Of a stretch of 64,000 nt of DNA, positions 38,451 to 59,417 are shown one piece after another (positions within the stretch are counted from its first letter, which is position 1; every line of letters starts with the position of its first letter). Location of the stretch: positions 868,001 through 932,000 of the forward strand of contig NZ_AP018827.1 in NCBI RefSeq assembly GCF_003966695.1. The letters are read 5' to 3'. This DNA comes from Asticcacaulis excentricus. GTDB lineage: Bacteria; Pseudomonadota; Alphaproteobacteria; Caulobacterales; Caulobacteraceae. The notes under the pieces are model-generated. The model searched no databases, was not told the DNA's origin, and saw only the letters and a list, made by a program, of their open reading frames with translations. The position numbers and the translations under genes are program-made.

Positions 38451-39848
38451 TTATGCCGCTCGCAGCCCCAGCCAGGTCCGGACACCCGGTAAGTGTCTCA
38501 GGATCAGGAATTCAAGCGTACCAACGACGATCAGACTGATCCCTAAAACCGGCAGGAATATTCCTAAGGCCACGATCAGTATCAGGAGGCCAATGCCCGC
38601 TGGCGTGGTCGCTGCCGGCTCCGGCGCACCAAGCTTCCCCGCCGGACGACGCTTCAGCCACATGACGACGCTACTGACGCACAGAGTGATCAGAGACAGG
38701 GCGGTAAAGACGCCCAGTGCCTGGTTTAGCCAGCCGAAAAGATGCCCTTCATGCGCGGCGATCATATACCCAACGACCTGATCAATGGGATGTTTCTGGG
38801 CAAAGGTTTCGCGGCTCAAAACCTGACCGGACTGGGGATCAAGCTTCAGAGTCACCCTGAGCGGCCGGTTCTGCGTGTTGGATTGGGCGGTCCAGTCTTT
38901 GACCTTCTTCGACGGCGCATTGATTGTCACGGGCGCCGGCAGGTCCAGCGCCTGTACTGTGGCGTACATGCGGTCGACTGACACCACAGGCGTGCCGTTG
39001 GTGTGACCTTTGTGACCGGCATGCTGACCTTGGCCCGTCTCATGATCGGCATGCTCTGAAACACCGGTTTCCGCGCGCTCCGTCTTGCGGTCAGCGGCGC
39101 GGCCCGAACTCCAGTCCTGTTTGACAGCCGCTGTGTGGGTAACGACGCGCACCTGCTTGAAGGCGTCACCCCAAACGGAGGTCCACGGAAGCCCTGACAG
39201 TAACAGGAACAGGGCAAAAAATGAGACATAGATACCCGTCACAGCGTGAAGGTCGCGCCAGAACAGGCGCTTGCCCATGCCTGTCCGTGGATAAAGCACG
39301 CCCGCCGGCCCTGAGGCCTGACGCGGCCACCACAGATAGAGCCCGGTGAGGATCATGACGATGGCCCAGCAGGCAGCCAGTTCCACGATGATCTCGCCGA
39401 CCTTTCCGGACAGAAGCTCCCCGTGAATGTTTTTCACCTGCGCCATAAAGCGCTGTTCCTCAGGAACGGATTTGAGGATCGCGAGCGTTTGGGGGTGAAC
39501 GTACAGTCTCAGCTTTTCGCCGTTCTCCGTAAACACAACGCGCGTGGCATCCTGAGGGTTCTGGCGCACCTCAACAGATGACAGTTTGGCCCCCGGATGG
39601 GCCGCACTGGCCGCTGACACCTGCTCGGTGATGGATTTCACCGGCCCGGTAAAGGACAGAGCATCGTATGGCCGGTCTATGGCGCTCTCGATCTGGGGTT
39701 TAAACAGATAGAGAGAACCGGTGATCGACAATATGATGATGAACGGGATGCAGAACAGGCCCGCGTAGAAGTGCCAGCGCCAGACGGCCCGCACCATGGC
39801 CTGGCGGCGCTTGGCGCGGTTCAGAGACTCCTCAACGGACGTGGACAT
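38451..39848 (-). CDS. PepSY-associated membrane protein with a His-rich loop
   Basis: 465 aa. Four main membrane helices: about 27-50, 152-175, 203-225 and one near the C-terminus followed by a further hydrophobic pair. Two PepSY-like periplasmic regions (about 55-140 and 285-370). The family (PiuB/PepSY_TM) often accompanies TonB receptors in iron or copper uptake and may reduce or transfer the metal. A periplasmic insertion has five histidines at about 266, 269, 276, 279 and 282 (HxxH, HxxHxxH spacing), suggesting metal binding. The gene follows its TonB receptor by 9 bp, so the two are co-transcribed. Confidence 0.85.
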   Translation of the reverse strand: MSTSVEESLNRAKRRQAMVRAVWRWHFYAGLFCIPFIIILSITGSLYLFKPQIESAIDRPYDALSFTGPVKSITEQVSAASAAHPGAKLSSVEVRQNPQDATRVVFTENGEKLRLYVHPQTLAILKSVPEEQRFMAQVKNIHGELLSGKVGEIIVELAACWAIVMILTGLYLWWPRQASGPAGVLYPRTGMGKRLFWRDLHAVTGIYVSFFALFLLLSGLPWTSVWGDAFKQVRVVTHTAAVKQDWSSGRAADRKTERAETGVSEHADHETGQGQHAGHKGHTNGTPVVSVDRMYATVQALDLPAPVTINAPSKKVKDWTAQSNTQNRPLRVTLKLDPQSGQVLSRETFAQKHPIDQVVGYMIAAHEGHLFGWLNQALGVFTALSLITLCVSSVVMWLKRRPAGKLGAPEPAATTPAGIGLLILIVALGIFLPVLGISLIVVGTLEFLILRHLPGVRTWLGLRAA

Positions 39849-39857
39849 GGACAGCCT

Positions 39858-42179
39858 CTACTGACGATACTTAAGTTCGATGAGAACGGTGCGCTGCGGC
39901 AGCGGGTGCGAGACGTAGGCCTGATAGTTGGCGACATTGTCAATGCCCACACTGACCTGCGTCCGCGGCGTTACCGCATAGTTCACCTTCAGATCGTAGG
40001 TGTTGTATTCGCTCTGGAAGCCAAAGGCGCGGCCGCGCGACAACCCGAAGAGGTCAGAGTTCGGCCGAGAGGCATAGCGCCAGCCCATCGTGCCTTTCAG
40101 CTTCTCGGTGAAGGCATAGGTCAGGCTGCCGTTCGAGCGCCAGCGCGGGATGCGCGGGAACTGCACGCCCTCGGCTGCCCGGTTGGCGGGGTTTTCAACC
40201 GTCTTGGCGTCCATCCATGACACGCTGCCGTTCAGGTCGAGGCCCGTGATGAGGAAGTCTTTGGCCTCATAGATGGCTTCCACACCATACTGCTTCATGC
40301 GCGCGATGTTCTTATAATTGGAGACCGTGTTGCCGTACTGATTGATGCCCTGGAAGGAGAAGATGGCGTCATCAATGTCCTGACCGAAGGCCGACAGGGT
40401 CAGGTTCGAGCGCGCGAACTTACGGCGGGCAATCAGGCTGATGTCCTTCGATTTTTCGGCTTTGAGATTGGGGTCGAAGCTATCAGGCAGAATAATCTGG
40501 GCGACCGGATCAAACGTGCCCTGATAGAGCTCGCCCACGGTTGGGAAGCGCGTGGCGGTGCCAAGGCTCAATTGCAGGCTCAGCGTATCCGAGACTCGGG
40601 TTTGCAGCGACAGTTTCGGATCCACCGAGGTCTGGCTGCGCGTGTCGTAGCGGGTGATAACCTTCTGGTTGGCGCTATTCAGGCCGCCGAGACCGCCATC
40701 AAAGGCGCGCCAGCGGTCGGCTCTGACACCCAGCGTCAATTCGGTGCGGTCGCTCAGGCTGATCTCGTCTTCAACGAAGACGCCGAACCCGGAGGTCTTG
40801 CCGAAGGTGCCGGAATTATAGGTGGCATTGGCGGCGGTGCGCCAGTTCGTGACCGAATAGATGGTCTGACCAGCCTTATAAAGGTTCTGGTTGACACCGA
40901 AGGTGATGTCATGGGCGCCAAAGGCCTGACGCATGGAGGCATCAAAGGCCCACCAGCCCGGTGTGTCCTGAAGTGTCTGCCGACCCGCGCCCGACGACAG
41001 CCCGGTCTGGAAATCATTCGAGGCCCGGCCGTCGCTTTCGGCGATCCAGAAGCGCGACAAATTAGCCCGCACGTCCCATCCGCCCCAGGGGCCGCTGACA
41101 CGGCCACCGGCCAGGTACTCGGTGCGCTCAGAGGTCGAATGGGTAATGCCGGTAGCGTTGTAGTACACCCCGTTGAACTTCACGCGGCCCTGATAGACAG
41201 GCAGTCCGGTAGAGGTTGCCGTCAACCAGGTGCGCGCGTCGGTCAGGTTCTGGGATGACTTCCACAAGACGAGCAGACCATCGGCTTTCCAGCCCGCGCC
41301 CAGATCATAGCTGGCGCGCAGCCGCGCCTGATCCTGCACGACATCGACGGGCGACTGCGCCCCATACACCGGCGTGGCCAGACGCGGATCGACATAGGCC
41401 CCGGTGACATCGGTATAGGTCGCCTGCACCGAGGCCGAGGTCGGTTGCGTGGCAACGCGCGAGAGCAGGTTATAGGTCATCGACTGACCGGTATTTTCAA
41501 AGTGGCGATAAGAGGCGCGAAGGCCCAGACGGCTGCCCTGCGGCTTCCAGTTGAGGCCGCCTTCAAAGCTGTAGCCCTCAAACGTCTCATCAAAGCCGTA
41601 CTCTTTGAACGGCATGATCATCTTCTGGACGGTGGCGTACCCGCCATTGGCCTTGGGCTCATCGGTCGTGATCGAGACCACGCCCCCCATCGAATTGCCG
41701 TTATAGCGCGCCGAATAGGGTCCGTAGACGATATCGAACTGCCGGATTTCCGACGGGCCGACCACGTTCCATTTCGGCGGGAAATCAAACCGGTTACCGA
41801 GGAAGTTGGACACGAGGAAGCCATCGACGAGAACGATGGTGCGCGCGCTTTGCACGGTATTGGCACCGCGCATAGCCACCACCGCATTGTCATCACCGGC
41901 AAAGCGCTTGCGGACAAAAAAATTGGGCGTGTACTTCATCAGGTCTTCGACGTTGAGCGCGTTGACCTTTTCAAACTCTTCCCGGCCCAAAGAGACGGAC
42001 AGGCCTCTGGGCTTGACGGTGATCGGCGTGTTTTTCTGTCCGACAACGATGATGTTCTCAACCTTGTCTTCGGCGGGTGCTTCGGATGTCTCGGCCGCGT
42101 GAGCGCTCAAAGGAAGCACAGATGCCCCCGCCAGAAGCGTGGCCAGAAGTGCATTTTTTTTAGAGATGAACATGCCCAT
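39858..42179 (-). CDS. TonB-dependent receptor of the first TBDR-PepSY module
   Basis: 773 aa from the ATG at 42179 (Met at 42173 also possible); the frame extends upstream without signal-peptide character. Signal peptide ending AHA, then ENIIVVGQ (TonB box), plug domain with ALNVEDLMKYTPNFFVR and YGPYSARYNGNSMGGVVSI, and a barrel ending LIELKYRQ. No N-terminal signalling (STN) domain. Ligand unknown; the linked PepSY protein and the island context favour a metal chelate. A GGACA-N3-TGTCC box lies 78-90 bp before the start. Confidence 0.9.
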   Translation of the reverse strand: MGMFISKKNALLATLLAGASVLPLSAHAAETSEAPAEDKVENIIVVGQKNTPITVKPRGLSVSLGREEFEKVNALNVEDLMKYTPNFFVRKRFAGDDNAVVAMRGANTVQSARTIVLVDGFLVSNFLGNRFDFPPKWNVVGPSEIRQFDIVYGPYSARYNGNSMGGVVSITTDEPKANGGYATVQKMIMPFKEYGFDETFEGYSFEGGLNWKPQGSRLGLRASYRHFENTGQSMTYNLLSRVATQPTSASVQATYTDVTGAYVDPRLATPVYGAQSPVDVVQDQARLRASYDLGAGWKADGLLVLWKSSQNLTDARTWLTATSTGLPVYQGRVKFNGVYYNATGITHSTSERTEYLAGGRVSGPWGGWDVRANLSRFWIAESDGRASNDFQTGLSSGAGRQTLQDTPGWWAFDASMRQAFGAHDITFGVNQNLYKAGQTIYSVTNWRTAANATYNSGTFGKTSGFGVFVEDEISLSDRTELTLGVRADRWRAFDGGLGGLNSANQKVITRYDTRSQTSVDPKLSLQTRVSDTLSLQLSLGTATRFPTVGELYQGTFDPVAQIILPDSFDPNLKAEKSKDISLIARRKFARSNLTLSAFGQDIDDAIFSFQGINQYGNTVSNYKNIARMKQYGVEAIYEAKDFLITGLDLNGSVSWMDAKTVENPANRAAEGVQFPRIPRWRSNGSLTYAFTEKLKGTMGWRYASRPNSDLFGLSRGRAFGFQSEYNTYDLKVNYAVTPRTQVSVGIDNVANYQAYVSHPLPQRTVLIELKYRQ

Positions 42180-42256: not shown

Positions 42257-42269
42257 GGACAAAATGTCC
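42257..42269 (-). promoter_or_regulatory. Island box A (GGACA-N3-TGTCC) before TBDR-PepSY module 1
   Basis: Perfect palindrome GGACAAAATGTCC centred 84 bp upstream of the TonB receptor ATG, in the gap between regA and the receptor gene. Confidence 0.7.
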
Positions 42270-42280
42270 TATACCTATGG

Positions 42281-42811
42281 TTACTTTACAGGCTGTTTCG
42301 CCAGTTTGCGAGTCAGGGTGCGACGGTGCATCCCAAGTCGACGGGCGGTGGCGGAGATGTTGTAGTTGGTCTCGACCAGCATCTCGTGAATGCGTTCCCA
42401 TTCCAGATTCTTGATCGAGGTCGGGCGTGGGGTCAGGGCCACGTCGGTACTGGGTTCATCGTGCTCGAACGCCGCGATAATCTCATCGGCGTTGGCGGGT
42501 TTGGCCAGATAATGCGTGGCCCCCAGCTTGATGGCCTGCACCGCCGTATTGATGCTGGCATAGCCGGTCAGAACAACAATACGCATGTCCGGGTCGAGCG
42601 CATGCAGGCCTTTGACGCACTCCAGGCCCGACGCTCCGGGCATTTTAAGATCGACCAGCGCAAAAGCGGGTTTCAGGGTCTCAGCCAGCGCAACCCCGTC
42701 TTCCGCCGTGTGGGCGACATGGGTCTTAAAGCCGCGTCGGCCCAATGACCGGGCCAGAGACGCGGCCAGATCCTTGTCGTCATCAACAATCAGGGTCGTC
42801 AGATTGGTCAC
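42281..42811 (-). CDS. regA: RegA/PrrA/ActR-type response regulator
   Basis: 176 aa. Receiver domain (about 5-115) with the DDD acidic pocket, phospho-acceptor Asp54 in FALVDLKMPG and a conserved Lys in YLAKPAN. A short proline-containing linker is followed by a Fis-like helix-turn-helix (about 132-172, EMLVETNYNISATARRLGMH, RRTL). This layout and length are specific to the RegA/PrrA/ActR redox-response family. Its start overlaps the regB stop by 4 bp. It is the best local candidate to bind the GGACA-N3-TGTCC boxes, including the one before regB. Confidence 0.92.
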   Translation of the reverse strand: MTNLTTLIVDDDKDLAASLARSLGRRGFKTHVAHTAEDGVALAETLKPAFALVDLKMPGASGLECVKGLHALDPDMRIVVLTGYASINTAVQAIKLGATHYLAKPANADEIIAAFEHDEPSTDVALTPRPTSIKNLEWERIHEMLVETNYNISATARRLGMHRRTLTRKLAKQPVK

Positions 42812-44139
42812 AGGTCACGCTCATCTTGCAAAAGGATGGCCCCCAGAGGCAGCCTCAGTTCGACACGCGCACCCGGCCCCTTCCCATCTGTACTCGCCCG
42901 GTTCGAAGCGATGAGTTGTCCGCCCAGCGAACGGAGCGTGTTATGCCCCAGAAAGAGGCCGAGTCCCCGACCACTCCGGCCGGCCTCGTCCTTTGTTGAG
43001 AGATAGGGTTCACCGATCCGCGATAAGATATCCGGATGGAAGCCCGGCCCTTCGTCGTCAACGGCCAGGATCAGCGTGTCAGCTTCTACTCTGGCCATAA
43101 ATACTACCGTCTTGTCTCGGCCAGCGGCTTCAACGGCATTATCCAGAAGGTGCGTCAGGGTCTGAGACATGACGCGGTCAGCGGCCACGCTGACATCAGG
43201 CACATCAAGGTAGGCATCCAGAATGACGTCCGGGTTTTGATTTTGCCAGTCGCCCAGCGTCTGCTCCAGAAAGCCTCTGAGTGAAGTGGCCATCGCGCCT
43301 TCACCTCTGGCTGAACCCGAAGCTGACAAAATGCCGGTGATGATGGCTTTACACCGCTCAAGCTGTGTCTGCATCGTTTGGATGTCCGCCAGTTGCTCGG
43401 CGCGCTTACGCGGCACTGACAGGTCGTGCCAGTCCTTGAGGATTACCGACAGGGTCGTCAGAGGCGTGCCCAGTTCGTGCGCGGCGCCCGCACTCAACAG
43501 CCCCATCCGCACGATTTGTACGTTTTCCGCAGACTGCTGCTGAAGCTGCGCCAGTTCCTGATCGCGAGCCCGAAGATTGGCCGTGATCCGCGACACAAAA
43601 AACACCACCAGACAGGCTGCCATGGCATAGGCAATCATCATCCCGTGCACGTGCATGTCAAAGCCAGCAGAGGTGCCGCCGTGGTGTTCATGCGCTGCCG
43701 GATAGGATTGCCGGAAGAAGCTCAGGCCTGCGTAAAATACCAGCGTACTGGCCGCGATACTCCAGGCGTAGAGCGGTTTTAACAGCACCGAACCGATGAT
43801 CACCGGAAGCAGGTACAGAAGGATGAATGGGTTGGAGGTGCCGCCACTCAGGTAAAGCTGCGCGGTAAAGGCCACCACATCGACCATGAGCCCGGCAAAC
43901 AACTCAAAATCGCTGATACGCGCTTTGGATTTGTATCGATAAAGAGCCCAGAGGTTGAACGCAACGAGCGCGGCGGTGACCCAGAGCATCTCCCCGATTC
44001 GGATAACCAGGTTGAAGCCGTAATAAACTGTCAGGATCGTCGCCAACTGGCCATAGAAGGCCATGCCGCGCAGATGGATCAACTGCAGCAGGTTTTTGCG
44101 TAGCGTTTCCTGTTCAATGTCTTGAGAGTGATGGGCCAT
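42808..44139 (-). CDS. regB: RegB/PrrB/ActS-type redox sensor histidine kinase
   Basis: 443 aa from the ATG at 44139. Six membrane segments (about 25-190) contain GGTSNPF (99-105), the quinone-associated motif of RegB. A periplasm-facing loop (about 147-170) is rich in His and Met (His150, 152, 153, 163, 165) and could sense metal, though His is also common there in relatives. The phospho-His is His221 in GAAHELGTPLTTLS. The redox-active Cys of RegB is conserved as Cys263 in LERCKAI. The HATPase domain holds DDEGPGF and GLGLFLG. It signals to RegA, coupling gene expression to respiratory redox state. Confidence 0.93.
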   Translation of the reverse strand: MAHHSQDIEQETLRKNLLQLIHLRGMAFYGQLATILTVYYGFNLVIRIGEMLWVTAALVAFNLWALYRYKSKARISDFELFAGLMVDVVAFTAQLYLSGGTSNPFILLYLLPVIIGSVLLKPLYAWSIAASTLVFYAGLSFFRQSYPAAHEHHGGTSAGFDMHVHGMMIAYAMAACLVVFFVSRITANLRARDQELAQLQQQSAENVQIVRMGLLSAGAAHELGTPLTTLSVILKDWHDLSVPRKRAEQLADIQTMQTQLERCKAIITGILSASGSARGEGAMATSLRGFLEQTLGDWQNQNPDVILDAYLDVPDVSVAADRVMSQTLTHLLDNAVEAAGRDKTVVFMARVEADTLILAVDDEGPGFHPDILSRIGEPYLSTKDEAGRSGRGLGLFLGHNTLRSLGGQLIASNRASTDGKGPGARVELRLPLGAILLQDERDL

Positions 44140-44196
44140 GGTGCGGGCTGAAAGAGGTAAACCTTGCTGATATCGGGAGAGAGCGGGGTGTCCACT

Positions 44197-44209
44197 GGAC
44201 AGATTGTCC
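44197..44209 (-). promoter_or_regulatory. Island box B (GGACA-N3-TGTCC) before regBA
   Basis: Perfect half-sites GGACA and TGTCC with spacer GAT, centred 64 bp before the regB ATG. Suggests autoregulation of regBA. Confidence 0.65.
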
Positions 44210-44221
44210 CACACGCTCAGA

Positions 44222-45481
44222 TCAGTGATTGTGGGAATGGGCGCTCACCTGCCCGGTTACCGGGATGTCGAGTTCCACCCTACCCTCTCGCTCAAACGTC
44301 AGGATCACCTTTTGTCGCTCTCCTTCGACCAAAGGACGGTTCGTCCCGGTGAGCATGATGTGCGCGCCCATGGGCGCGAGCACCAGACCGGCCTGGGCAG
44401 GGACGCTGAAACCCTCCGGAGCGGGGGCCATTCCCATAAGTCCGTCCCTCATCGACATAATGTGCAAGGAGGCCGTCTCGGCGCAGGCGCATTGCGCACT
44501 CAGGAGGCGGTCCGGGGTCTTTCCCGTATTATCCACCGTGAGATAGATCGCGCTCACCGGAACCGTGCCGCGTGTGGCACGCATGGCGTACTGGCTGATG
44601 CGCAAGGCTCCGGCCTCAACAACCGGCGGCGCCGCCTCGCTCAGGACCGGGGCTTCAAAGCGATGCACGGGGGCGCTCAAGGTTGTCAGGCAGGCGGTGA
44701 CAACGAGAACCGCGCCAAATAGCCCCACCTCGCCTTTAACCACCCGGCGCAACAACTGACCGGCGGCTTCGCTTTCAGCGAGGCGCGGAACCAGCCGCCA
44801 GCGATTGAAGGCGGCAAGGCCAAGCAGCCCCGCAACCAGGGCGACCTTGAGGACCAGCCATCCGACGTAAGGCTGAGACAGGTCGATTTCGGTTCCCAAC
44901 AGAATGACGGCCATGAAGGGACCCGCCATCACAAGCGCCAGAACCGCGCCAAAGGCCTGTTGGCTGAACCTCTGCGCGACCTCTCCTAACTCAGTCGGGC
45001 TTTCCAGCGACAAAAGACGCCAGAGCCCCCCGAACCACCAGGTCGCCAGACCGATATGCAGTCCCACGAAAATCGCCCCACCGACCCCAGCACGCGCAGC
45101 CATATGGCCAGAAAAGGCCAGTCCGGCCACGAGACCGACGGCCCCCGCCAAACGAATGAGCGGGCGAGTGCCCCCTAGTCCAATGGCAACCGCGCTGACG
45201 AACTGAAGGATAAGGCTTAAGCCCGCGGCCGATCCGAACAGAGCCGACAGGGTCGGCGCATCAAATCCGCCCCCCAGACGCAGGAACAGGAAACAGAACT
45301 GGGTCGCCGCGATCAGGCCGGTAAAGGCCGCCAGACCCAGACTGTTCAGCTCAAGCCGTCGGCGGTAACCGTAAAGCGAGGCATCCGCAAAGATGAGCCC
45401 TGCGGTCGCAAACACACCCCCATAGAGCATGGTTTTGAGAAGGGTGCTGAACACCAGTTCCAGGGTCAATCCACCGTCCAT
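44222..45481 (-). CDS. copD: CopD copper permease fused to a PCu(A)C copper chaperone
   Basis: 419 aa. The ATG at 45481 overlaps the copC stop as TGATG. Residues 1 to about 270 form a CopD-type membrane domain with eight hydrophobic segments (histidines at about 126 and 142 are possible copper ligands). The domain 286-410 is a periplasmic PCu(A)C chaperone with the ligands His340, Met351, His374 and Met376, matching H-x10-M-x21/22-H-x-M. The tail ends HSHNH. CopD is thought to move copper inward, and PCu(A)C delivers Cu(I) to oxidases, so the fusion links import to delivery. I do not recall this fusion as standard; it is normally two proteins. Confidence 0.88.
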   Translation of the reverse strand: MDGGLTLELVFSTLLKTMLYGGVFATAGLIFADASLYGYRRRLELNSLGLAAFTGLIAATQFCFLFLRLGGGFDAPTLSALFGSAAGLSLILQFVSAVAIGLGGTRPLIRLAGAVGLVAGLAFSGHMAARAGVGGAIFVGLHIGLATWWFGGLWRLLSLESPTELGEVAQRFSQQAFGAVLALVMAGPFMAVILLGTEIDLSQPYVGWLVLKVALVAGLLGLAAFNRWRLVPRLAESEAAGQLLRRVVKGEVGLFGAVLVVTACLTTLSAPVHRFEAPVLSEAAPPVVEAGALRISQYAMRATRGTVPVSAIYLTVDNTGKTPDRLLSAQCACAETASLHIMSMRDGLMGMAPAPEGFSVPAQAGLVLAPMGAHIMLTGTNRPLVEGERQKVILTFEREGRVELDIPVTGQVSAHSHNH

Positions 45482-45831
45482 CAGGGGGCTTTGCGGATAT
45501 TGACGATGATCACGCCCTCGACCACATGACCGTCCGGCGACAAGGCCTTCCATCTCAGTTCATTGCGCCCGGCCGGCAGGTCCGGGGAGACGGCAGTAAA
45601 GCTGTCCGACTCGCCTGCGGGTGAGAATTTCAGGCGCTTCTGTCCGTTTGCATGTTTGCTGACCAGAGAGGTAAGCCGCACGGGCTCGGCAAAGGTCAGA
45701 ACGATTTCCGGCGGAGATTCCGTGAGTACCTCGCCGCTTTGCGGCACCGTAGCGATCAGGGGCGTGTGGGCACTGGCTGCCACAGGCAAGCTGATCAGCG
45801 CGGCTACAAGCGTCAGGACCTTGAGTTTCAT
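45481..45831 (-). CDS. copC: CopC/PcoC periplasmic copper-binding protein
   Basis: 116 aa. Signal peptide cut before His (AASA|HTPLIATVPQSGE). The N-terminal His together with the Asp and His of SPDGHVVEGV are the canonical Cu(II) ligands. The Met-rich Cu(I) site of some CopC proteins is not evident. Immunoglobulin-like fold. It hands copper to CopD; the gene is translationally coupled to copD and lies 9 bp after mbnH. Confidence 0.92.
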   Translation of the reverse strand: MKLKVLTLVAALISLPVAASAHTPLIATVPQSGEVLTESPPEIVLTFAEPVRLTSLVSKHANGQKRLKFSPAGESDSFTAVSPDLPAGRNELRWKALSPDGHVVEGVIIVNIRKAP

Positions 45832-45840
45832 ATCGCCTCC

Positions 45841-47013
45841 TTAAGGTTTCGGCCAGGGATTGGAAAATCTAGGGTCCCGCAGGACCTCTTCATCAGTTTG
45901 CGCCCGCAGGAAGGCTTTGAGGTCTTCCCGCTCTTTTTCGGTCAGGGAAAAGCCCGGCACAAACGAGCTCTTCAGAGGATTGAGGCGGCCTTCTCCCTTG
46001 TTCGGCCCCTCTTTAAGGGTACGCCCGCCCGCCGCATAGTGATCAATGACCTCATCCAGCGTTGCTGCCGAGCCATCATGGAAATAAGGAGCGGTCACCG
46101 CGACGTTGCGCAGGCTGGGGGTGCGAAAGCGTCCCATATCTTCGGCGCGACCCGTGATTTCCTTGATCCCCTGATTATCGGGCGGATAAGCGCCCTTTCC
46201 ATCGAGATTGTAAAGCCCGGTATTGTGGAAGGCAAAGGCCCCCAGCCTGTTGCGCGCATGGCGCTCCGAATCTGAGAGGTTCAGACCATTATGGCAGTGG
46301 TGACATTCCAGCTTCTCGCTGAAAAACAAGGCCTCCCCTCGCAAAACCGAGTCTGAGACGGCATCGACATCGCCCTCATAACGATACCGGTCATAAGGCG
46401 AGCGAAACGAGACGATCGAGCGTTGAAACGCTCCCAGCGCCCGCGTCACGGTCGCCAACGATATCTCTCCCTTCTCGCGTGGGAAAGCCTTGCGAAACAG
46501 GGCGGGATAGACGGGTTCGGCCTTCAGCCGGGCAATCATCTCGTCTTCCCGGCCGGATAGCCCCAGTTCCACCGGCTCCGTCCCGGTCAGCGGAACGAGG
46601 GCCTGCTGCTCGAACGAATGAAGCAACGGGTTCGACCAGGTCATCACCGGAAAATAAGCTGAATTGACCAGAGACATCGAATTGCGCTTGGTGTGCTCAC
46701 CCGTTACGCCGGGCGATGTGGCGCGCCCGTCCGTGAAGGCACGCGCCTGTTCATGACACGAGGCGCAGGACATCGAGCCGTCCCGTGACAGGCGCGTGTC
46801 GTAAAAGAGATAGCGGCCCAGTTCGACCTTAGCGGCCGTGGTCGGGTTGCCCCTGGGCTCCAGCGGTTTGGGGGCCCAGGCGGGCAGCCTGAAATCAAAG
46901 TGGCTTTCCACCCAGTCCCCGAGCGCTTCGACGCGCGAAGCGCCGCTGGCCTGCAACCCTGCAAGGCCAAGGGCTACGACGATCGAACCTATGACAACAG
47001 CGCGTTTGATCAT
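45841..47013 (-). CDS. mbnH: MbnH-like di-heme cytochrome c peroxidase-family enzyme
   Basis: 390 aa. N-terminal signal/anchor, then two c-type heme sites, CASCH (83-87) and CHHCH (237-241), in a BCCP/MauG fold. Proteins of this subgroup pair with a four-Cys MbnP protein; the published MbnH oxidises a tryptophan of MbnP to kynurenine, creating a copper site. Here the gene overlaps mbnP by 4 bp and precedes copC, which fits that role. It could also be a peroxidase in the strict sense; pairing with MbnP argues for the modifying function. Confidence 0.85.
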   Translation of the reverse strand: MIKRAVVIGSIVVALGLAGLQASGASRVEALGDWVESHFDFRLPAWAPKPLEPRGNPTTAAKVELGRYLFYDTRLSRDGSMSCASCHEQARAFTDGRATSPGVTGEHTKRNSMSLVNSAYFPVMTWSNPLLHSFEQQALVPLTGTEPVELGLSGREDEMIARLKAEPVYPALFRKAFPREKGEISLATVTRALGAFQRSIVSFRSPYDRYRYEGDVDAVSDSVLRGEALFFSEKLECHHCHNGLNLSDSERHARNRLGAFAFHNTGLYNLDGKGAYPPDNQGIKEITGRAEDMGRFRTPSLRNVAVTAPYFHDGSAATLDEVIDHYAAGGRTLKEGPNKGEGRLNPLKSSFVPGFSLTEKEREDLKAFLRAQTDEEVLRDPRFSNPWPKP

Positions 47014-47885
47014 TTTACGGTTATGAAGGCCTGACCTTGCGACGGCTTGCCTCTGAAAGTCAGGCCCAGACGGTCAAAGAGGCCCACGCAGTCATTGTCC
47101 TCTTCGCTCGACATGCAACCGGATGGGCTTTGCGGCGCATTGGTGGTGATGTCGGTCGTCGCCAGAACCGCGCCAAGGTCCATGACCAGCGTATTGGTCT
47201 TCGGATTAAACGCGGTAAAGCGATATTCGGGACGGTTGGGGTTGCTGCAGGCCATTTTCGGCGGCGTCACCCACGACCCCTCCCCGCAAGCCGTGCTGCC
47301 AAGATGAATCGAAAAGCCGCTGGCTGAGGCCGTTTTTCCCGCGGCTGGAGCGGTTTCAAGATCGATGGTCGTGAACTTGTAACCCACTCGCCACGGCCAG
47401 GCGGTGGCCGACAGATTGAGGGGCGCCGGGGCCAGAGTGGGGTCCTGATGATTGATCTCAAAGGGAACACCGATGTCAAACACCACGCCCGAATAGTCGC
47501 CCTTCGGCGCCGTGCCTTTGATCGTTGTGTTCAGGGGGGCGTTACCGTTGCAGTTGCCGGTTGCGTTCTCAAAATCAAGCAAGGCCACCTTGTCGTCCTG
47601 CCACACACCGTCCGGTGTCAACGCCATCGGCACCTCTTTGCCGTCCTTAGTGAGGAGGCGGAAATTCGACACATAGATCCGGAAGTCCTGCAGTTCAAGG
47701 CTCGCGCCCGTGCTGCCGATGCCCGTGTAACGCTGACCACAGGTGAGCGGCGCACCGTTCACAGCGGCGGCAAAGCGGATTTCAACCGACTGGGATTTTG
47801 GCGCCGCCAGTGCCGGTGCCGCCAGCGTGGTCAGTGCCATGGCTGCCATTAAGCTGACGCCGGACCGGGATTTTGCAAAAGACAT
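47010..47885 (-). CDS. mbnP: MbnP-family copper-binding protein
   Basis: 291 aa. Signal peptide ending ALAAP. Six cysteines (49, 112, 200, 213, 257, 266) include the set that defines the metallo-mystery-pair four-Cys family. The segment SATAWPWRVGYKF has Trp163 and Trp165 in the conserved W-x-W-x2-GY-F context. A tryptophan of MbnP is converted to kynurenine by MbnH and then takes part in copper binding; which of the two applies here is not determined. Twenty-one bp after the upstream TonB receptor gene, so one operon. Confidence 0.88.
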   Translation of the reverse strand: MSFAKSRSGVSLMAAMALTTLAAPALAAPKSQSVEIRFAAAVNGAPLTCGQRYTGIGSTGASLELQDFRIYVSNFRLLTKDGKEVPMALTPDGVWQDDKVALLDFENATGNCNGNAPLNTTIKGTAPKGDYSGVVFDIGVPFEINHQDPTLAPAPLNLSATAWPWRVGYKFTTIDLETAPAAGKTASASGFSIHLGSTACGEGSWVTPPKMACSNPNRPEYRFTAFNPKTNTLVMDLGAVLATTDITTNAPQSPSGCMSSEEDNDCVGLFDRLGLTFRGKPSQGQAFITVK

Positions 47886-47906: not shown

Positions 47907-49976
47907 TCAGAAGTCCAGTTTGAGTGACAGACTGACGCTACGCCCCTCGGCGGGCAGGATGTAGCGGGAAACGTGGAGGTGGCTGGCGACATAGTAGTCT
48001 TTATCAAGCAGGTTGCGGATATTGACTTGGAGCCTCACTGGGTTTCCAGCCATCTCCATACGGAACCCTTGAGTCAGATCGACACGGGCATAGGCCGGCA
48101 GTTCGATAGTGTTCTGGCTGTCGGCGAAGCGCTTTGACTGCCCATACAGACCCAAACCCGTATAGGCGAAGGCGTTCCAGTCATGGGTCACAAAAACGCT
48201 AAGGGTATGGCGCGCGGTATTGGCGACCGATTTGCCAGCCAGTTCACTGTTGCGGGTATATTTCGCCTCGGTCAGACCGTAGGCGAGGTCAAGCCGAAGA
48301 CTGTTGCTGATTTCCCCATTTGCTGCCAGTTCGATCCCCCGCGAGCGCCCCTCCCCGGCCAGCGTCTTGTCAAACGCATAGGCCGTTGAGGGATCATCGG
48401 CGAGCAAATTGCTCTGATCCAGTTGGTACGCCGCTGCGCTGCCCGTGAAGCGACCGTCCAGGAAGCGCCCCTTCCATCCGGCTTCCCACTGTTTGGAGAT
48501 ACGCGAGGGCAAGGACTGGTTGAGCTTGGAGGTCGCCTGGTTCGGTGCCATGCCTTCAGAATAGGACCCAAAAACCGCATGGTTTGAACTTACCTCGTAG
48601 GTCACACCGAGCTTTGGGTTGACACGATCTTCCTGAACCGGAAGCACGCCCGTCGTCCCGTAAAGAAAATCCTGATCAACATATTGCAGACCAAGCACCA
48701 GACCGAGCCGGCCCAGATCAATCCGATCCTGTAAGGTGAGGCTCTTCGTTGTTACATCCATACGGGTCGAAGTGGCGGTCAGCGTTCCCGATGGCGCGGT
48801 CACAAGCCCAAACACCGGTGCGAAGATATTGATATTGGGGGAGTTGGCGGCCGGGACCCGCAGAGACAGAAGGGCGAGCTCTTCGGTTTGATAATCGAGG
48901 CCCAAAAAGAGATTATGAGCCACGCCACCGAAGGTTTCGGTTCCAGTCAGCGATAGCTGAGCACTATCGGTATCGCGCTTCCCATAGGGTTCATAGGCCG
49001 TGGCGCGGGTATAGACGCCGGGCTGGCCAGCGACCGCCGAAAACACGGAGTTACGAATAGAGGTCTGATGACCGTCCGCGTGCAGGAGGCGCGTCGATAC
49101 TTGCCAGTTTTTAGACAGCCTGAGATCGCCCTGAAGGGTATAGATGCGATTATTGAGGGTTGACGGCGCAAATGGCTCGCCAAGTTGCAAGGTGAGTGGA
49201 ACCTTTGCCGGACGACCATTTATGCCCGGCACCCCGAAATCCGGCTCGTAGGTCTGATCGGTGGCTTCAAAGTCAAACAGCACGCGGTAGAGATCGGCAT
49301 GGCTCTTGGAGATCGACCACTTCAAACCGTTGAGTTTGTCCTTCGCGTCGCGCCATTCGCTCGATGTGGATCGCGTCAGAATAAGGCGGGTGGCCAGTTC
49401 ATTTTGCGCAGACAAAACGAGGTTGCCGTCCAGATAGGCCTCGCCCTGATTGTGAGAGCCGACCTGGGCGTAGGCGGACGCGAAGGTGCGGGGTTGCGGC
49501 GTTTTGGTCACGACGTTCACACTGCCGCCCGGCTCCGTGCGCACCGCCGTCAAGGCCCCAGCACCGCGGACCACATCCAGCCGTTCAACGAAGGCGCTGG
49601 CGTACCCGTAATTGCTCAGACGCACGCCATCACGCATGACCCGGCTGTTGCCCGTCCCGGAGTCGGCGATCGCACCCCTGAGCATAAAGACGGGTGAGTG
49701 CACACCGGTGAAGCTGAAATCGGGCTGTGCGCCAGGAACGTTGCGAAGGGCATCATTGAGCGTCAGACCGCCCTGAATATCTACCGTTTCAATATCAACG
49801 CTTGAGGTTGAGAACGGTACCTTCTGGTCCGGAGCGGGGGCACCGGCGGCCAGATTGGATGACGCGCCGCGGACGATGACCTCTGTAACAGGGGCATTCT
49901 CTGTTGTTTCCGCGATGGCAGGAAGGGCTGAAGCCAGAAGCGCGATGGCCGTCGAGGTCAGAAAGAAGGGTTTCAT
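47907..49976 (-). CDS. TonB-dependent receptor next to mbnPH
   Basis: 689 aa from the ATG at 49976 (signal peptide MKPFFLTSTAIALLASALPA). TonB box VTEVIVRG, plug with LTLNDALRNVPG and VERLDVVRGAGALTAVRTEPGGSVNVVTK, barrel ending SLSLKLDF. The plug resembles siderophore receptors of the FhuA/FcuA type. Encoded directly before mbnP; TonB receptors linked to MbnP/MbnH occur in copper-responsive loci, so a copper chelate is the favoured ligand by context. It has no box of its own and should be read from the promoter upstream of the other receptor (52970). Confidence 0.9.
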   Translation of the reverse strand: MKPFFLTSTAIALLASALPAIAETTENAPVTEVIVRGASSNLAAGAPAPDQKVPFSTSSVDIETVDIQGGLTLNDALRNVPGAQPDFSFTGVHSPVFMLRGAIADSGTGNSRVMRDGVRLSNYGYASAFVERLDVVRGAGALTAVRTEPGGSVNVVTKTPQPRTFASAYAQVGSHNQGEAYLDGNLVLSAQNELATRLILTRSTSSEWRDAKDKLNGLKWSISKSHADLYRVLFDFEATDQTYEPDFGVPGINGRPAKVPLTLQLGEPFAPSTLNNRIYTLQGDLRLSKNWQVSTRLLHADGHQTSIRNSVFSAVAGQPGVYTRATAYEPYGKRDTDSAQLSLTGTETFGGVAHNLFLGLDYQTEELALLSLRVPAANSPNINIFAPVFGLVTAPSGTLTATSTRMDVTTKSLTLQDRIDLGRLGLVLGLQYVDQDFLYGTTGVLPVQEDRVNPKLGVTYEVSSNHAVFGSYSEGMAPNQATSKLNQSLPSRISKQWEAGWKGRFLDGRFTGSAAAYQLDQSNLLADDPSTAYAFDKTLAGEGRSRGIELAANGEISNSLRLDLAYGLTEAKYTRNSELAGKSVANTARHTLSVFVTHDWNAFAYTGLGLYGQSKRFADSQNTIELPAYARVDLTQGFRMEMAGNPVRLQVNIRNLLDKDYYVASHLHVSRYILPAEGRSVSLSLKLDF

Positions 49977-50004
49977 GAGTCTATATCTATCCAGAAAGCG
50001 TGTC

Positions 50005-50846: not shown

Positions 50847-52970
50847 TTAATAGGCCAGACGCAAGGTCACAGAGGCCGTGCGCGGTGCGCCCGGCTGTAC
50901 CCAGTCCTGCACAAACTGATGCGATCCGGTGTAATAGCGCTCATCGAAGAGGTTATTGACGTTGAGCTGGATAAGCGCGGCCTTGCCACTGACCTCGAAG
51001 GCCCGCGATACCATGGCATCGACCCGCGTGTAGGCCGGCATGACAAAGGTGTTGCCAATGTCGCCATAACGGTCACCCTGATAGAAGAGCCCTGCCCCAA
51101 CACGCCATTTCTCCGAAACACTGTAGGTGGCCCAGAGGCTGGCAGCGTGCTCGGGCACATTGGCCAGCGCCTTGCCCTGATAGTTGGCGTCCTGCGTGAC
51201 CTCGGTATCTGTGTAGGCGTAGGAGGCAATCAGCGACAGGGCGGGCGTCACTTCACCAATGACATCGACTTCCAGCCCGCGGGAGCGCGCTTCACCGGTC
51301 GTCAGGATCTCGCCCGTCACATAGTAGAGCGTGAAGTCAGCCCGGTTTTTCTTGATCAGTTCGTAGAGGGCAACGGTGGCTGAGAGCTTTCCATCCGGGG
51401 CCTGATATTTGTAACCGATCTCGGTCTGTTTCGCGGTTTCGGGATCGACGGCCTTGCCCAGCATATCACGACCATTATTGGCGGCGAGAGATGACTGGGC
51501 CTGCGCATAGAGGGTCTGGTTGGGCGAAAACGACCAGACAAGACCGGCCCTTGGCGAGGTGTACTCAACCGTATTGGTCGTCACACCGGGGAGAATATAC
51601 CCCGCTTCTGCCTTATCGTGGCGCACCGCCAGAACCAGATTCAGCCCGTTGCCGAAATCGATCTGATCCTGAACACTGAGCCCTTGCCAGTTGTTGTAGT
51701 CCACATAGTCCAGCGCATCGAGAACGACCGTGTCGCCGAGCTTGGGCGTGTTGGTGAAGACAGGATTGTAGATATCCACGCCGCCGATGGCGGAGAAGAG
51801 CGTAATGCCTTTCTTTTTCGCGCGATAGGCATCAGCACTGATCAGCAGATTGTGGGTGACCTTGCCCGCGGTGATCTTACCGGTCAGGTCGAGCGCATAC
51901 TGTCCCATCGAATTGGAGCCGTCGGGACGCGCATAGTAATAGTACCGGCACAAGGGGTTCCCGTCCCCATCGCAGGCACCCGACATGGCCATATCCATAC
52001 GATAGGGTGTGATATCGACCTCGCGCATGTCGGCATCAAAGCTGATGGCTTTGGCCTTCAGGCTCCAGTTATCCGAGAGCCGATGAGCGACTTCGAAGCG
52101 CAGGACGCGGCTTTCGATGTGCGAGAGTTCTGGTGCATTGTTGAACTGCGTGTGCAAAGGCAGGTTGGCGACGGTATTGCCGATCGCCGGGATACCGTAG
52201 TCATTGCGGTAGCGATGATCGAGATAATCCGCCGAAGCGGACACCGTCGTGTTGGGCGAAGCCTGCCATTGAACTTTCAACCCGACCGAGGCCAGCTTTT
52301 CCTCGACGAAGTCACGCACCGAGTCTGTGGTGTAATAGCTGGCGGAACCGCCCACCAAAAGCGTCTTATCGTCAGTGACGGCCCCGCCGCCATTCAGGGA
52401 GGTCGAGGACAGGCCATATTCACCCAGGGTCTGCGCGAATTCGAGACCCGGCATGGCGCGCAGAGACTTGGTGACCACGTTCACAACCCCGCCGGGCTCG
52501 CCGCGGCCAAACAGGACCGAGTTCGGGCCTTTCAAGACCTCCACCGCCTGAACGTTGGTCATGTTAACCGGCAGGCCTGAGACCCGTGTGCCGTCGAGGT
52601 AATAGTTGGAGGCCCCCAGCATCGAGCCAAACGCTGTCATCGAGGTTGACGGAAAGCCCCGCAGAACCAGCAAAGGCTGCGTCAGGCCATTAAAGCCGAA
52701 ATCTGTTGTGACGCCCGACACATTGCGCGTGGCATCAGACAGGGTGAACACCTGCTGGTCCTGAAGAACCTCAACGGGCACAACCTGAATAGCCTGAGGT
52801 GTAAGGAGGTTCGGGATCGCTGTCCGGTTTGCTTCGGTTGTACGGGCCGGTAAAAGCTTACGGCCGGTCACCACGACCTCGGTTGTTACCTCACCCGCCT
52901 CGGCCGCCTGAGAGACAACAGGGGTCGACAGGGCGGCCATGGCCGCGGTCATCAAGAGATGGGTTTTCAT
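50847..52970 (-). CDS. TonB-dependent receptor heading the copper operon
   Basis: 707 aa from the ATG at 52970 (signal peptide ending VSQAAEA). TonB box TTEVVVTGRK, plug with FTLSDATRNVSGV and VEVLKGPNSVLFGRGEPGGVVNVVTK, barrel ending SVTLRLAY. The plug belongs to the ferric-siderophore receptor type (FcuA/FhuA-like). First gene of a colinear run of seven: this receptor, the isonitrile-hydratase-like gene, a second receptor, mbnP, mbnH, copC and copD. Gaps are all 28 bp or less. Box C lies 67-79 bp before its start. Confidence 0.9.
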   Translation of the reverse strand: MKTHLLMTAAMAALSTPVVSQAAEAGEVTTEVVVTGRKLLPARTTEANRTAIPNLLTPQAIQVVPVEVLQDQQVFTLSDATRNVSGVTTDFGFNGLTQPLLVLRGFPSTSMTAFGSMLGASNYYLDGTRVSGLPVNMTNVQAVEVLKGPNSVLFGRGEPGGVVNVVTKSLRAMPGLEFAQTLGEYGLSSTSLNGGGAVTDDKTLLVGGSASYYTTDSVRDFVEEKLASVGLKVQWQASPNTTVSASADYLDHRYRNDYGIPAIGNTVANLPLHTQFNNAPELSHIESRVLRFEVAHRLSDNWSLKAKAISFDADMREVDITPYRMDMAMSGACDGDGNPLCRYYYYARPDGSNSMGQYALDLTGKITAGKVTHNLLISADAYRAKKKGITLFSAIGGVDIYNPVFTNTPKLGDTVVLDALDYVDYNNWQGLSVQDQIDFGNGLNLVLAVRHDKAEAGYILPGVTTNTVEYTSPRAGLVWSFSPNQTLYAQAQSSLAANNGRDMLGKAVDPETAKQTEIGYKYQAPDGKLSATVALYELIKKNRADFTLYYVTGEILTTGEARSRGLEVDVIGEVTPALSLIASYAYTDTEVTQDANYQGKALANVPEHAASLWATYSVSEKWRVGAGLFYQGDRYGDIGNTFVMPAYTRVDAMVSRAFEVSGKAALIQLNVNNLFDERYYTGSHQFVQDWVQPGAPRTASVTLRLAY

Positions 52971-53036
52971 TAGGTTTCCCGGCATCAGCGAAAGATATGC
53001 TCACGCTCGTAGCCGTTGGTGCGTCCCAAAGAACTT

Positions 53037-53049
53037 GGACATTTTGTCC
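53037..53049 (-). promoter_or_regulatory. Island box C (GGACA-N3-TGTCC) before the copper operon
   Basis: Perfect palindrome GGACATTTTGTCC centred 73 bp before the receptor ATG at 52970. Confidence 0.7.
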
Positions 53050-53141: not shown

Positions 53142-53154
53142 GGACAAAGTGTCC
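53142..53154 (+). promoter_or_regulatory. Island box D (GGACA-N3-TGTCC) before sodB
   Basis: Perfect half-sites with spacer AAG, centred 129 bp before the sodB ATG at 53277. Confidence 0.65.
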
Positions 53155-53276
53155 AATCCCGGTCCTGCCTCCTGACGTATAGATATTTCGCTCACCCGAC
53201 GACCTGACCCTTATCGAATTTCTATCTCCGATCCGACATCTGTTGTCGCCCATCACCGCTCTTGAAAGGATCGATC

Positions 53277-53996
53277 ATGAAGTCCATGGCTTTCGCTACC
53301 GCCCTCGCCCTGCTGGCGACGACCACCGTGCCAACAGGAGTACGCGCGCAATCCATCTCCGCGACCTCCGCTGATGCGGCCTTTACCCTGCCCACCCTGC
53401 CCTATGCGGCAAATGCGCTGGAACCGGCCATTGATGCCGAAACCATGACCATCCATCACGATCGCCATCACAAGGCCTATGTCGATACGCTCAACAAAGC
53501 CATAAACGAGACCCCCGCGCTTAAGGGGAAATCGCTAGCAGAGCTTCTGGCTGGCGCTGGTAGCCTCCCTATGGTGGTGCGCAATAATGCCGGCGGACAC
53601 TGGAACCACAGTTTCTTCTGGCAAACCCTGACCCCTGCGGCGCAGTCCGGCCAGCCGTCTCCGGCACTGGCTAAGGCGATTGCGGATCAATGGGGTTCAC
53701 TCGACGCCTTCAAAGCGGAATTCAAGAAAGCCGGAACCGGCCGTTTCGGATCGGGGTGGGCCTGGCTGATTGTCGGGAAGGACGGCAAACTGGCCATCAC
53801 CTCCACACCCAATCAGGACAATCCGCTGATGGACGTCGCCGAGGTTAAGGGCACGCCAATCCTCGGTAACGATCTTTGGGAGCACGCCTATTATCTGAAG
53901 TATCAAAACAAGCGCGCCGACTATCTCGACGCCTTCTGGCAGATCGTCAACTGGAAGGCCGTATCTGACCGTTATGCCGATGCCATAAAGAAATGA
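53277..53996 (+). CDS. sodB: Exported Fe/Mn superoxide dismutase
   Basis: 239 aa from the ATG at 53277 (GAAAGGA ribosome-binding site). Unlike usual cytoplasmic SodB, it starts with a signal peptide (about 1-24, cut after VRA). Metal ligands: His60 in TIHHDRHHKAY, His111 in GGHWNHSFFW, and the Asp and His of NDLWEHAYY. GGHWNHSFFW with the Gly-rich stretch fits the Fe/Mn family. It should remove superoxide in the periplasm, sensible beside copper and heme redox proteins. Its own promoter region carries island box D. Confidence 0.92.
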   Translation: MKSMAFATALALLATTTVPTGVRAQSISATSADAAFTLPTLPYAANALEPAIDAETMTIHHDRHHKAYVDTLNKAINETPALKGKSLAELLAGAGSLPMVVRNNAGGHWNHSFFWQTLTPAAQSGQPSPALAKAIADQWGSLDAFKAEFKKAGTGRFGSGWAWLIVGKDGKLAITSTPNQDNPLMDVAEVKGTPILGNDLWEHAYYLKYQNKRADYLDAFWQIVNWKAVSDRYADAIKK

Positions 53997-54111: not shown

Positions 54112-54552
54112 TTACGTCTTTTCGAAGAATTCAGGGAGGCGACCTTCCACGGCTTTCAACTCAGCCCCGGAGATGGTGAGCCAGGCGAGTTGCAGACCAT
54201 AAAAGAACATCAGGAGCGAAAAGGGTAACGAGAACGGCTCGTGCTCTTTGGCGAACCACAACGCACGTGATGCGAGGGTCAGTGCTGATGCGCCAGGCAC
54301 CCAGATAAGTAGCGACTGGAAAGGATGCAGATCGAACAGATTATGAAACGTCGCTTTTAGGGCCTGCCAGAAACAATAGACCGCTGACAAGGCCAGAGCC
54401 GCCACCGCGACCGCCGTCGAGAAGGGTTTATTGCCCGAAAAGATTACGACGAGCGCGAACAATGAGACATTGATCAAAGTCACGCGATGTCGACGTGAGG
54501 CGAACCAAAGCCAAAGATTGGAAGGTCCTGCAAAAGTCGGTCGTGAAGTCAT
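54112..54552 (-). CDS. Small four-helix membrane protein of the island
   Basis: 146 aa. Hydrophobic segments at about 22-40, 44-66, 80-100 and 105-128, with a charged C-terminus. Several Trp and Phe residues but no catalytic or metal-binding motif. I do not recognise the family. It has its own copy of the island box (E) 70 bp upstream, which places it in the same regulon as the TonB receptors and regBA. Confidence 0.7.
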   Translation of the reverse strand: MTSRPTFAGPSNLWLWFASRRHRVTLINVSLFALVVIFSGNKPFSTAVAVAALALSAVYCFWQALKATFHNLFDLHPFQSLLIWVPGASALTLASRALWFAKEHEPFSLPFSLLMFFYGLQLAWLTISGAELKAVEGRLPEFFEKT

Positions 54553-54615: not shown

Positions 54616-54628
54616 GGACAAAGTGTCA
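54616..54628 (-). promoter_or_regulatory. Island box E (one mismatch) before the small membrane protein
   Basis: GGACAAAGTGTCA: one half-site perfect, the other with one substitution. Centred 70 bp before the ATG at 54552. Confidence 0.6.
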
Positions 54629-54630: not shown

Positions 54631-54660
54631 GGACATTCCGCCCCATGGGACGGAATGTCC
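54631..54660. repeat. 30-bp palindrome downstream of metY
   Basis: Arms GGACATTCCG and CGGAATGTCC around CCCCATGGGA; only one base pair breaks the symmetry of the whole. It is 24 bp after the metY stop codon and 2 bp from box E. It could be the metY terminator, an extra operator (its ends are GGACA and TGTCC), or both. Confidence 0.55.
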
Positions 54661-54684: not shown

Positions 54685-55962
54685 TTACCCGGCCGCGCGG
54701 TTAAGAGCCTGATCAATGTCGGCGATAATGTCGTCGACATGTTCGATGCCAATCGACAACCGCACAAGATCTTCTGAAACCCCGGCCTTGGCCAGTTCCT
54801 CAGCGTTCAACTGACGGTGTGTCGTGGAGGCTGGATGGCAGGCGAGCGACTTGGCATCCCCGATATTCACCAGTCGGTAGATAAGCTGCAAGGCGTCGAT
54901 GAAGCGGGCCCCGGCTTCGCGCCCGCCCTTGAGGCCAAAGGACACAATGCCCGACCCCTGACCCTTGGTGTAGACCTCAGCCAAAGCCTTATAGCGATTG
55001 TCTTTCAGCCCGGCGTAATTGACCCAGGCGACACCCGGATGCTTGGTGAGATACTCGGCGACCGCCTGCGCATTGGCGCAATGCCTTTCGATACGCAGCC
55101 CAAGGGTTTCTAGTCCCGAAAGGATGAGAAACGCATTGTGGGGCGACAGAGCCGCGCCCTTATTACGCAGCGGAACCACGCGGCAGCGACCAATATAGGC
55201 CGCCGGCCCCAGAGCCTCTGTGTAGACAACGCCATGATAGGACGGGTCTGGTTCGTTCAGACACTTGAAGCGGGCCTTTTCTTTCACCCAGTCGAACCGT
55301 CCAGAGTCGACGATTATGCCCCCAATAGCATTGCCGTGGCCACCGATGTATTTTGTCAGGGAGTGCACAACAATATCGGCCCCGAAATCAAAAGGCCGGC
55401 ATAGGAAGGGCGTCGCCACCGTGTTATCGACGATAACCGGCACACCGTGCCGATGGGCAATCTCACTGACGCGGCGAATATCCACGATGTTACCCGCCGG
55501 ATTACCAATGGACTCGATGAAGACCGCCTTGGTCTTTTCATCAATCAGACGGTCAAGGGCATCGAAGTCATCGGCATCGAACAGCCGCACCTCAATCCCC
55601 TGACGCGGAAAGGTATGGACGAAAAGATTATAGGTGCCCCCATAAAGCTGGCTGACGGAGACGATGTTGTCGCCGGCATCGGTAATCGCCTCAATCGCAT
55701 AGGTAATGGCCGCCATGCCCGAACTGACGCAAAGCCCGGCCACACCGCCCTCCAGTTCGGCCACCCGCTGCTCCAGAACGGCGGTAGTGGGGTTCATGAT
55801 CCGCGTGTAGATGTTGCCGGCGACTTTCAGATCAAACAGGTCAGCCCCGTGCTGGGTATCATCGAACGTGTAGGATGTCGTCTGATAGATGGGAACAGCC
55901 GCCGAACGCTGCGGCGCTTCGGGCTTATAGCCGTGGTGAATGGCGAGGGTTTCGGGCTTCAT
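54685..55962 (-). CDS. metY: O-acetylhomoserine sulfhydrylase/aminocarboxypropyltransferase
   Basis: 425 aa, a PLP-dependent Cys/Met-metabolism enzyme that makes homocysteine from O-acetylhomoserine and sulfide. The PLP lysine is Lys204 in HSLTKYIGGHGN; SGMAAITYAIEAITDAGDN and QLYGGTYNLF are typical of MetY rather than MetB/MetC, as is the length. It is a single-gene unit inside the island with a degenerate box 35-47 bp upstream. Sulfur amino acid supply under copper or oxidative stress would be a rationale, but that is inference. Confidence 0.93.
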   Translation of the reverse strand: MKPETLAIHHGYKPEAPQRSAAVPIYQTTSYTFDDTQHGADLFDLKVAGNIYTRIMNPTTAVLEQRVAELEGGVAGLCVSSGMAAITYAIEAITDAGDNIVSVSQLYGGTYNLFVHTFPRQGIEVRLFDADDFDALDRLIDEKTKAVFIESIGNPAGNIVDIRRVSEIAHRHGVPVIVDNTVATPFLCRPFDFGADIVVHSLTKYIGGHGNAIGGIIVDSGRFDWVKEKARFKCLNEPDPSYHGVVYTEALGPAAYIGRCRVVPLRNKGAALSPHNAFLILSGLETLGLRIERHCANAQAVAEYLTKHPGVAWVNYAGLKDNRYKALAEVYTKGQGSGIVSFGLKGGREAGARFIDALQLIYRLVNIGDAKSLACHPASTTHRQLNAEELAKAGVSEDLVRLSIGIEHVDDIIADIDQALNRAAG

Positions 55963-59359: not shown

Positions 59360-59417
59360 TTTGGTCATCCATTGTCGATGCTGCGCCGGGTAGCGGTCCC
59401 TGAGCGCAACATCGATT

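Follow-up and report, generated by a model that had tools for sequence, protein, structure and literature searches.

A group 2 RegB/RegA pair and its candidate operator in a copper island of Asticcacaulis excentricus

Duplicated RegAB systems have been described as group 1 and group 2 (PMC8191878). The RegB kinase of R. capsulatus is stimulated by reduced quinol and inhibited by oxidised quinone, and group 1 systems are linked to copper through SenC and through copper binding by RegA, whose Cys mediates copper-dependent dimerisation (PMC9147068). In Burkholderia, cyo is under positive control by group 2 RegA (PMC8191878), and a cyoABCDsurF1regBA operon has been recorded in Sphingopyxis, where RegBA was suggested to activate the operon (PMC7713065). 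With regard to copper supply, pairs of a TonB receptor and a PepSY_TM protein serve the provision of copper to oxidases (PMC12914433, PMC13038864), and the aa3 oxidase of Caulobacter requires a TonB receptor (PMC12617631). Here we compare with these systems a RegB/RegA-type pair encoded within a 64,000-nucleotide stretch of the A. excentricus genome (the window).

Class assignment of the regBA2 pair

The initial annotation had placed a RegB/RegA-type pair inside a metal island, a description that domain searches bear out. The two genes, regB2 and regA2, are both on the minus strand and share 4 bp, and, in addition to the Pfam domains listed in Table 1, the top NCBIfam match is ActR/PrrA/RegA for RegA2 (170 bits, below the curated equivalog cut-off of 250) and ActS/PrrB/RegB for RegB2 (234 bits, below the cut-off of 350). 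The start codon of regB2 is probably ATG 44139, because the alternative GTG 44214 would place box B within the gene. RegB2 retains the quinone motif (GGTSNPF) and the redox-box Cys (ERCK), both as proposed, together with the HELGTP H-box; GG..NPF and the redox Cys are conserved in every oxidase-linked and island RegB sequence compared.

The same genome carries a second, canonical regBA (C1:1837453-1839384; 568.6 and 313.8 bits) that adjoins a sco-like gene, and when regBA candidates in this genome are ranked, the canonical pair comes first, the window pair second, and all others far behind. Matches across 299 genomes of the family had a bimodal distribution, with about 70 genomes carrying a RegB2 orthologue at 39–98% identity and canonical RegB falling at about 27–33%; in a pattern-based scan of named genomes, the sole real relative was a 98% identical RegB on a contig of Asticcacaulis sp. 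W46. Outside Asticcacaulis, the pair found in the family search terminates a cyoABCD-surf1-regB-regA operon, and a phylum-wide search detected the class, often in the same operon, in further families of Alphaproteobacteria and in two that lie outside it.

In a RegB tree rooted at its midpoint, island and oxidase-linked RegB form one clade (100/99) and group 1 a separate one (100/100), placing the window copy in a different class from canonical RegB. Within the former clade, the four island RegBs form a clade of their own (100/98) that is sister to the remainder (99/92). On this tree, we place the window pair in the group 2 RegBA class, with the island lineage as a separate branch. As is characteristic of group 2, the operon carrying regBA has a box in its promoter (box B). 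The cyoABCD-surf1 linkage, which is usual but not universal in group 2, is absent from the window pair, as is the sco/senC linkage characteristic of group 1, the sco gene lying beside the canonical pair instead. The earlier suggestion of a dedicated paralogue thus holds in part: a canonical pair exists elsewhere and the boxes are found almost solely in the island, but the window pair belongs to the known group 2 class and is not a private duplicate.

The copper island and its boxes

The neighbours of regBA2 are copper or metal genes, encoding CopC, a CopD-PCuAC fusion, MbnH, MbnP, four TonB receptors and two PepSY_TM proteins (Table 1). The genes of the MbnP/MbnH pair are adjacent and overlapping, with both products above their curated family cut-offs, and the order receptor then PepSY_TM occurs twice, at TBDR1 and TBDR4. 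Comparison of TBDR1 and TBDR4 with solved receptor structures yielded weak or no matches, none of them informative. The signal-peptide-like N-terminus of the boxed Fe/Mn superoxide dismutase would fit a periplasmic substitution for a copper-zinc enzyme under copper shortage.

Table 1. Genes and boxes of the island, with positions in the window
Feature	Position	Strand	Domain match or context
PepSY_TM membrane protein, downstream of TBDR1	38451..39848	-	Pfam PF03929
TBDR1, TonB-dependent receptor	39858..42179	-	
Box A, GGACATTTTGTCC	42257..42269		TBDR1-PepSY_TM promoter
regA2, group 2 RegA-type response regulator	42281..42811	-	Receiver and Fis-type HTH (Pfam)
regB2, group 2 RegB-type histidine kinase	42808..44139	-	HisKA and HATPase (Pfam)
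Box B, GGACAATCTGTCC	44197..44209		regB2-regA2 promoter (putative autoregulation); exact match
CopD-PCuAC fusion protein	44222..45553	-	Pfam PF05425 and PF04314
CopC	45481..45831	-	Pfam PF04234
MbnH-family di-heme enzyme	45841..47013	-	TIGR04039, 487 bits, over cut-off
MbnP-family copper-binding protein	47010..47885	-	TIGR04052, 277 bits, over cut-off
TBDR2, TonB-dependent receptor	47907..49979	-	Siderophore-receptor model, over cut-off
TBDR3, TonB-dependent receptor	50847..52985	-	Siderophore-receptor model, over cut-off
Box	53037..53049		Ahead of TBDR3 and collinear genes as far as CopD-PCuAC
Box	53142..53154		Ahead of divergent superoxide dismutase gene
Fe/Mn superoxide dismutase, signal-peptide-like N-terminus	53262..53996	+	Pfam PF00081/PF02777; sequence
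Membrane protein of unknown family, beneath two boxes	54112..54552	-	No Pfam match
Proximal box, TGACACTTTGTCC	54616..54628		1 mismatch; ahead of the 54112-54552 gene
Distal box, GGACATTCCGTCC	54648..54660		1 mismatch; 32 nt from proximal box
Cys/Met-metabolism PLP enzyme	54685..55962	-	Pfam PF01053
PepSY_TM membrane protein, downstream of TBDR4	56232..57323	-	Pfam PF03929
TBDR4, TonB-dependent receptor	57329..59368	-	
Box F, GGACATTTTGTCC	59418..59430		Ahead of TBDR4-PepSY_TM-PLP enzyme

Seven boxes lie upstream of island transcription units, two of them with one mismatch. Box B, the regulon box that had been attributed to the pair itself, lies 58 nt upstream of the regB2 ATG and has a −10-like TA 25 nt downstream; its core is exact, while its 3' side reads AG rather than the AA of TTGGACA-N3-TGTCCAA. 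There are nine exact copies of the core GGACANNNTGTCC in the 3.79-Mb genome, five of them intergenic in the island (42257-59430) and four within coding genes; at the density outside the island (4 in 3.78 Mb), about 0.02 exact cores would be expected in a 17-kb segment. When one mismatch is permitted, the 64-kb window contains 11 copies of GGACANNNTGTCC against 1.8 expected, a number reached in 0 of 100 shuffles. The four outside copies were rejected as regulon members, since all fall inside coding genes whose functions are unrelated; named by eye from translations, these encode two FAH-type hydrolases, a TldD-like peptidase and a pyruvate dehydrogenase E2. The sequence GGACGGTTCGTCC at 44334 was likewise discarded as a chance occurrence, because it is intragenic (in the CopD-PCuAC gene) and has no GACA-N3-TGTC core.

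In Asticcacaulis, all four genomes with RegB2 carry the island. RegB2 was found in the genus only together with the island, and not as a sole regBA copy retained in synteny where the island is lacking. MbnP is present in 3 of the 25 genomes of the genus, comprising three of the four RegB2-positive and none of the 21 RegB2-negative genomes (Fisher's test, P ~0.002, relatedness ignored). The fourth RegB2 genome (G129) is missing about 2.7 kb (window 45028-47684) near L087 5890, in an island that is otherwise collinear; this gap, which may be a deletion or an assembly fault, spans MbnH, CopC, most of MbnP and the start of CopD-PCuAC. A divergent relative (G133), with a RegB2 of only 49% identity, carries a separate version of the island in which the promoters of MbnP, TBDR3, PCuAC/TBDR, the regulator and TBDR2 have boxes. 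This version also holds two extra RegA-like response regulators (L089 14556-15595), divergent about a one-mismatch box, one of them apparently frame-broken.

A DJ-1/PfpI-like gene at 50005-50836 looks frameshifted or holds a sequencing error, because two overlapping ORFs, 50291-50836 and 50005-50541, each encode part of it in a different frame. The two copies of a 181-nt direct repeat (37575-37755 and 59478-59658; 89% identity, separated by 21.9 kb) flank the island, with an IS110-type transposase gene immediately beyond it (59928-60986). A repeat-bounded mobile element carrying the island was considered but is not proposed, as the repeat was not found in the relatives' loci examined.

Outside the genus, we called a box at cyoA promoters when its core had at most one mismatch. 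By this measure, all 13 cyo-linked group 2 loci of other families have TTGGACA-N3-TGTCCAA immediately upstream of cyoA, and in 36 of 37 Caulobacteraceae loci the box lies where the cyo operon begins, 4.8–5.3 kb upstream of regB2. It is absent from all six loci of the wider, group-2-type class that have no oxidase operon. Because the same box recurs, base for base, at cyo promoters in several orders, TTGGACA-N3-TGTCCAA is, on these comparisons, a specific and distinct group 2 operator that RegA2 would be predicted to bind; the original suggestion that its layout is compatible with the degenerate GCGNC-type repeats described for RegA/PrrA, here the group 1 kind, was set aside on the same ground. 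A literature search with the box sequence gave no regulatory paper among the results listed, and none of the searches carried out turned up a published site for group 2 RegA.

The layout of these promoters is similarly constrained. The AA following the box is near-invariant (27/27 and 25/27 promoters), and a TA dinucleotide lies exactly 26 nt past the box in 19 of 27 promoters and within a 3-nt bin in 21; no shuffle of 2000 showed clustering as strong, although related promoters among the 27 are not independent. All six gene-proximal boxes in the window fall in this same bin. If the TA represents −12/−11, the box centre would lie near −44, just upstream of −35, and the fixed spacing between box and −10 suggests activation by RegA2.

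In one genome (G388, L233 5012-10133), group 2 regBA is divergent from a cbb3-type oxidase operon and a one-mismatch box lies upstream of regB. Another genome (G233) has three exact boxes, one at cyo and one, GGACAGATTGTCC (L182 3861), ahead of an ompW-like gene near a cydB-like gene; besides cyo, the ompW-like gene may be a second target of group 2 RegA.

Proposed control of copper acquisition and its alternatives

Comparative sequence analysis shows group 2 membership of the pair, the association of the box with regBA across orders, the near-confinement of boxes to the island, their fixed spacing, and the co-occurrence of RegB2 with the island. We infer that RegA2 binds the box, that it activates, and that the signal is quinol, copper or both. 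We consider it likely that regBA2 is a group 2 system dedicated to the copper island, reading quinone and activating the island genes through the box. Because the pair sits in an island holding nearly all likely target sites, this redox switch probably tunes copper import to respiration.

RegB2 would most likely sense the redox state of the quinone pool through GGTSNPF and the redox Cys on the cytoplasmic side, and copper at the island-specific His/Met-rich periplasmic loop may tune this sensing. In such a scheme, copper shortage would disable heme-copper oxidases and quinol would build up, rendering RegB2 active. RegB2 would then phosphorylate RegA2, and RegA2∼P would bind TTGGACA-N3-TGTCCAA centred near −44 to activate the TonB receptors, PepSY_TM proteins, MbnP/MbnH, CopC/CopD-PCuAC and its own operon; it would also switch on the copper-independent Fe/Mn superoxide dismutase. 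That an oxidase regulator responsive to quinone has become a copper-starvation two-component system, with RegB2 reading both quinone and periplasmic copper and driving a copper regulon through a bo3-oxidase operator, is a bolder proposal that we advance tentatively and hold to be somewhat improbable as a whole.

The outer loop of RegB2 bears on what is sensed. The His/Met-rich stretch noted initially corresponds to FRQSYPAAHEHHGGTSAGFDMHVHGMM (residues 142-168, numbered from ATG 44139), which forms the third periplasmic loop in a topology deduced from the six-helix layout of RegB. This loop contains 8–13 His plus Met in the island clade, compared with 0–6 in oxidase-linked RegB (n=51) and 0–4 in group 1 (n=30), so that enrichment is confined to the island clade, which consists of two divergent lineages. 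This distribution, and the fact that the main regulated genes are all copper-related, would be expected if island RegB2 were mainly a copper (metal) sensor with quinone sensing secondary, a possibility that is compatible with quinone reading and that we take seriously while placing it below even chances. The full retention of GGTSNPF and the redox Cys argues against this reading, as does a genome of an unrelated alphaproteobacterial family (G847, L252 6581-10370), in which MbnP-MbnH is convergent with group 2 regB-regA and RegB2 has no His/Met-rich loop.

Dedication of the boxes to RegA2 can also be questioned, since another regulator, for example canonical group 1 RegA or a metal repressor, might read them, with regBA2 merely one target. 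We judge this unlikely: the box tracks group 2 regBA over several orders, no box is found at the cyo promoters of 9 of the 10 other-genus genomes lacking RegB2, and the alignment places differences between group 2 and group 1 RegA within and around the recognition helix. What lends the idea some weight is an exact cyoA box in a genome without RegB2 (G117), together with the cyo promoters of Asticcacaulis, most of which carry TGCGACA-N3-TGNC or AGACAATTTGTCC. Because genomes of the genus that lack RegB2 keep such sites as well, they are perhaps read by another regulator, and may be group 1 RegA sites. In the source genome, cyo lies on a different contig (C3) with a near-box at C3:287309 that cannot be assigned to RegA2 for this reason; the cyo promoter was accordingly discarded as proof of RegA2 control, AGACAATTTGTCC being shared with relatives that lack RegB2.

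RegA2 could act as a repressor of the island rather than an activator, given that the box is next to the expected −35, a position from which repressors too can work; we regard this as improbable, because a constant spacing with the centre near −44 is the usual layout of an activator touching RNA polymerase and because group 2 RegA of Burkholderia regulates cyo positively (PMC8191878). Finally, an iron (siderophore) uptake role for the island, with the pair controlling iron instead of copper, is equally doubtful: TBDR2 and TBDR3 exceed the cut-off of a siderophore-receptor model and PepSY_TM proteins can be ferrisiderophore reductases (PMC13038864), but CopC, CopD, PCuAC, MbnP and MbnH are copper-associated families, and TonB receptor and PepSY_TM pairs supply oxidase copper as well (PMC12914433, PMC13038864).

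If activation of the island by regBA2 is correct, it offers a possible explanation of how copper acquisition is kept in step with heme-copper oxidase demand in some alphaproteobacteria, and a concrete candidate operator for group 2 RegA in TTGGACA-N3-TGTCCAA. The fixed promoter layout and the clean presence or absence within one genus make the operator and coupling claims directly testable.

Relation to described systems

The closest described systems are the group 2 RegB/RegA pairs of cyoABCD-surf1-regBA operons, such as Sphingopyxis granuli SGRAN_2997-2991 (PMC7713065), with which the window pair shares its kinase and regulator class, the quinone motif and the redox Cys; the operator at the relatives' cyo promoters is the same as the island boxes. 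Whereas cyo-type regBA normally ends a bo3 oxidase operon, the island pair resides in a copper-acquisition island, belongs to its own RegB branch and has the His/Met-rich loop. Group 1 RegB/RegA (PrrBA, ActSR and the R. capsulatus system) shares the overall architecture, GGxxNPF, the redox Cys and the Fis-type HTH. It differs in forming a separate clade, in the presence of RegA Cys156, for which RegA2 has no Cys at the aligned place beside the HTH, and in its degenerate operator consensus, given as YSCGGS-N0-10-GWCRM in PMC5435760.

The CrtA-CrpH operon, which serves copper import in Bordetella pertussis (PMC12914433, PMC13038864), has, like the island, a TonB receptor followed by a PepSY_TM protein, and is tied to heme-copper oxidase function. 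It is controlled post-transcriptionally by CruR, with no RegBA; its likeness to TBDR1 and TBDR4 is one of gene order. TccA of Caulobacter vibrioides, from the same family as the source organism, is a TonB receptor proposed to feed copper to a respiratory oxidase; the available portion of that report (PMC12617631) concerns a single receptor and mentions no RegBA, and the likeness lies in receptor type and proposed role. Set beside these systems, the locus appears to be a coherent regulon centred on the island, whose regulator is of a known class in a new context and whose candidate operator is newly defined.
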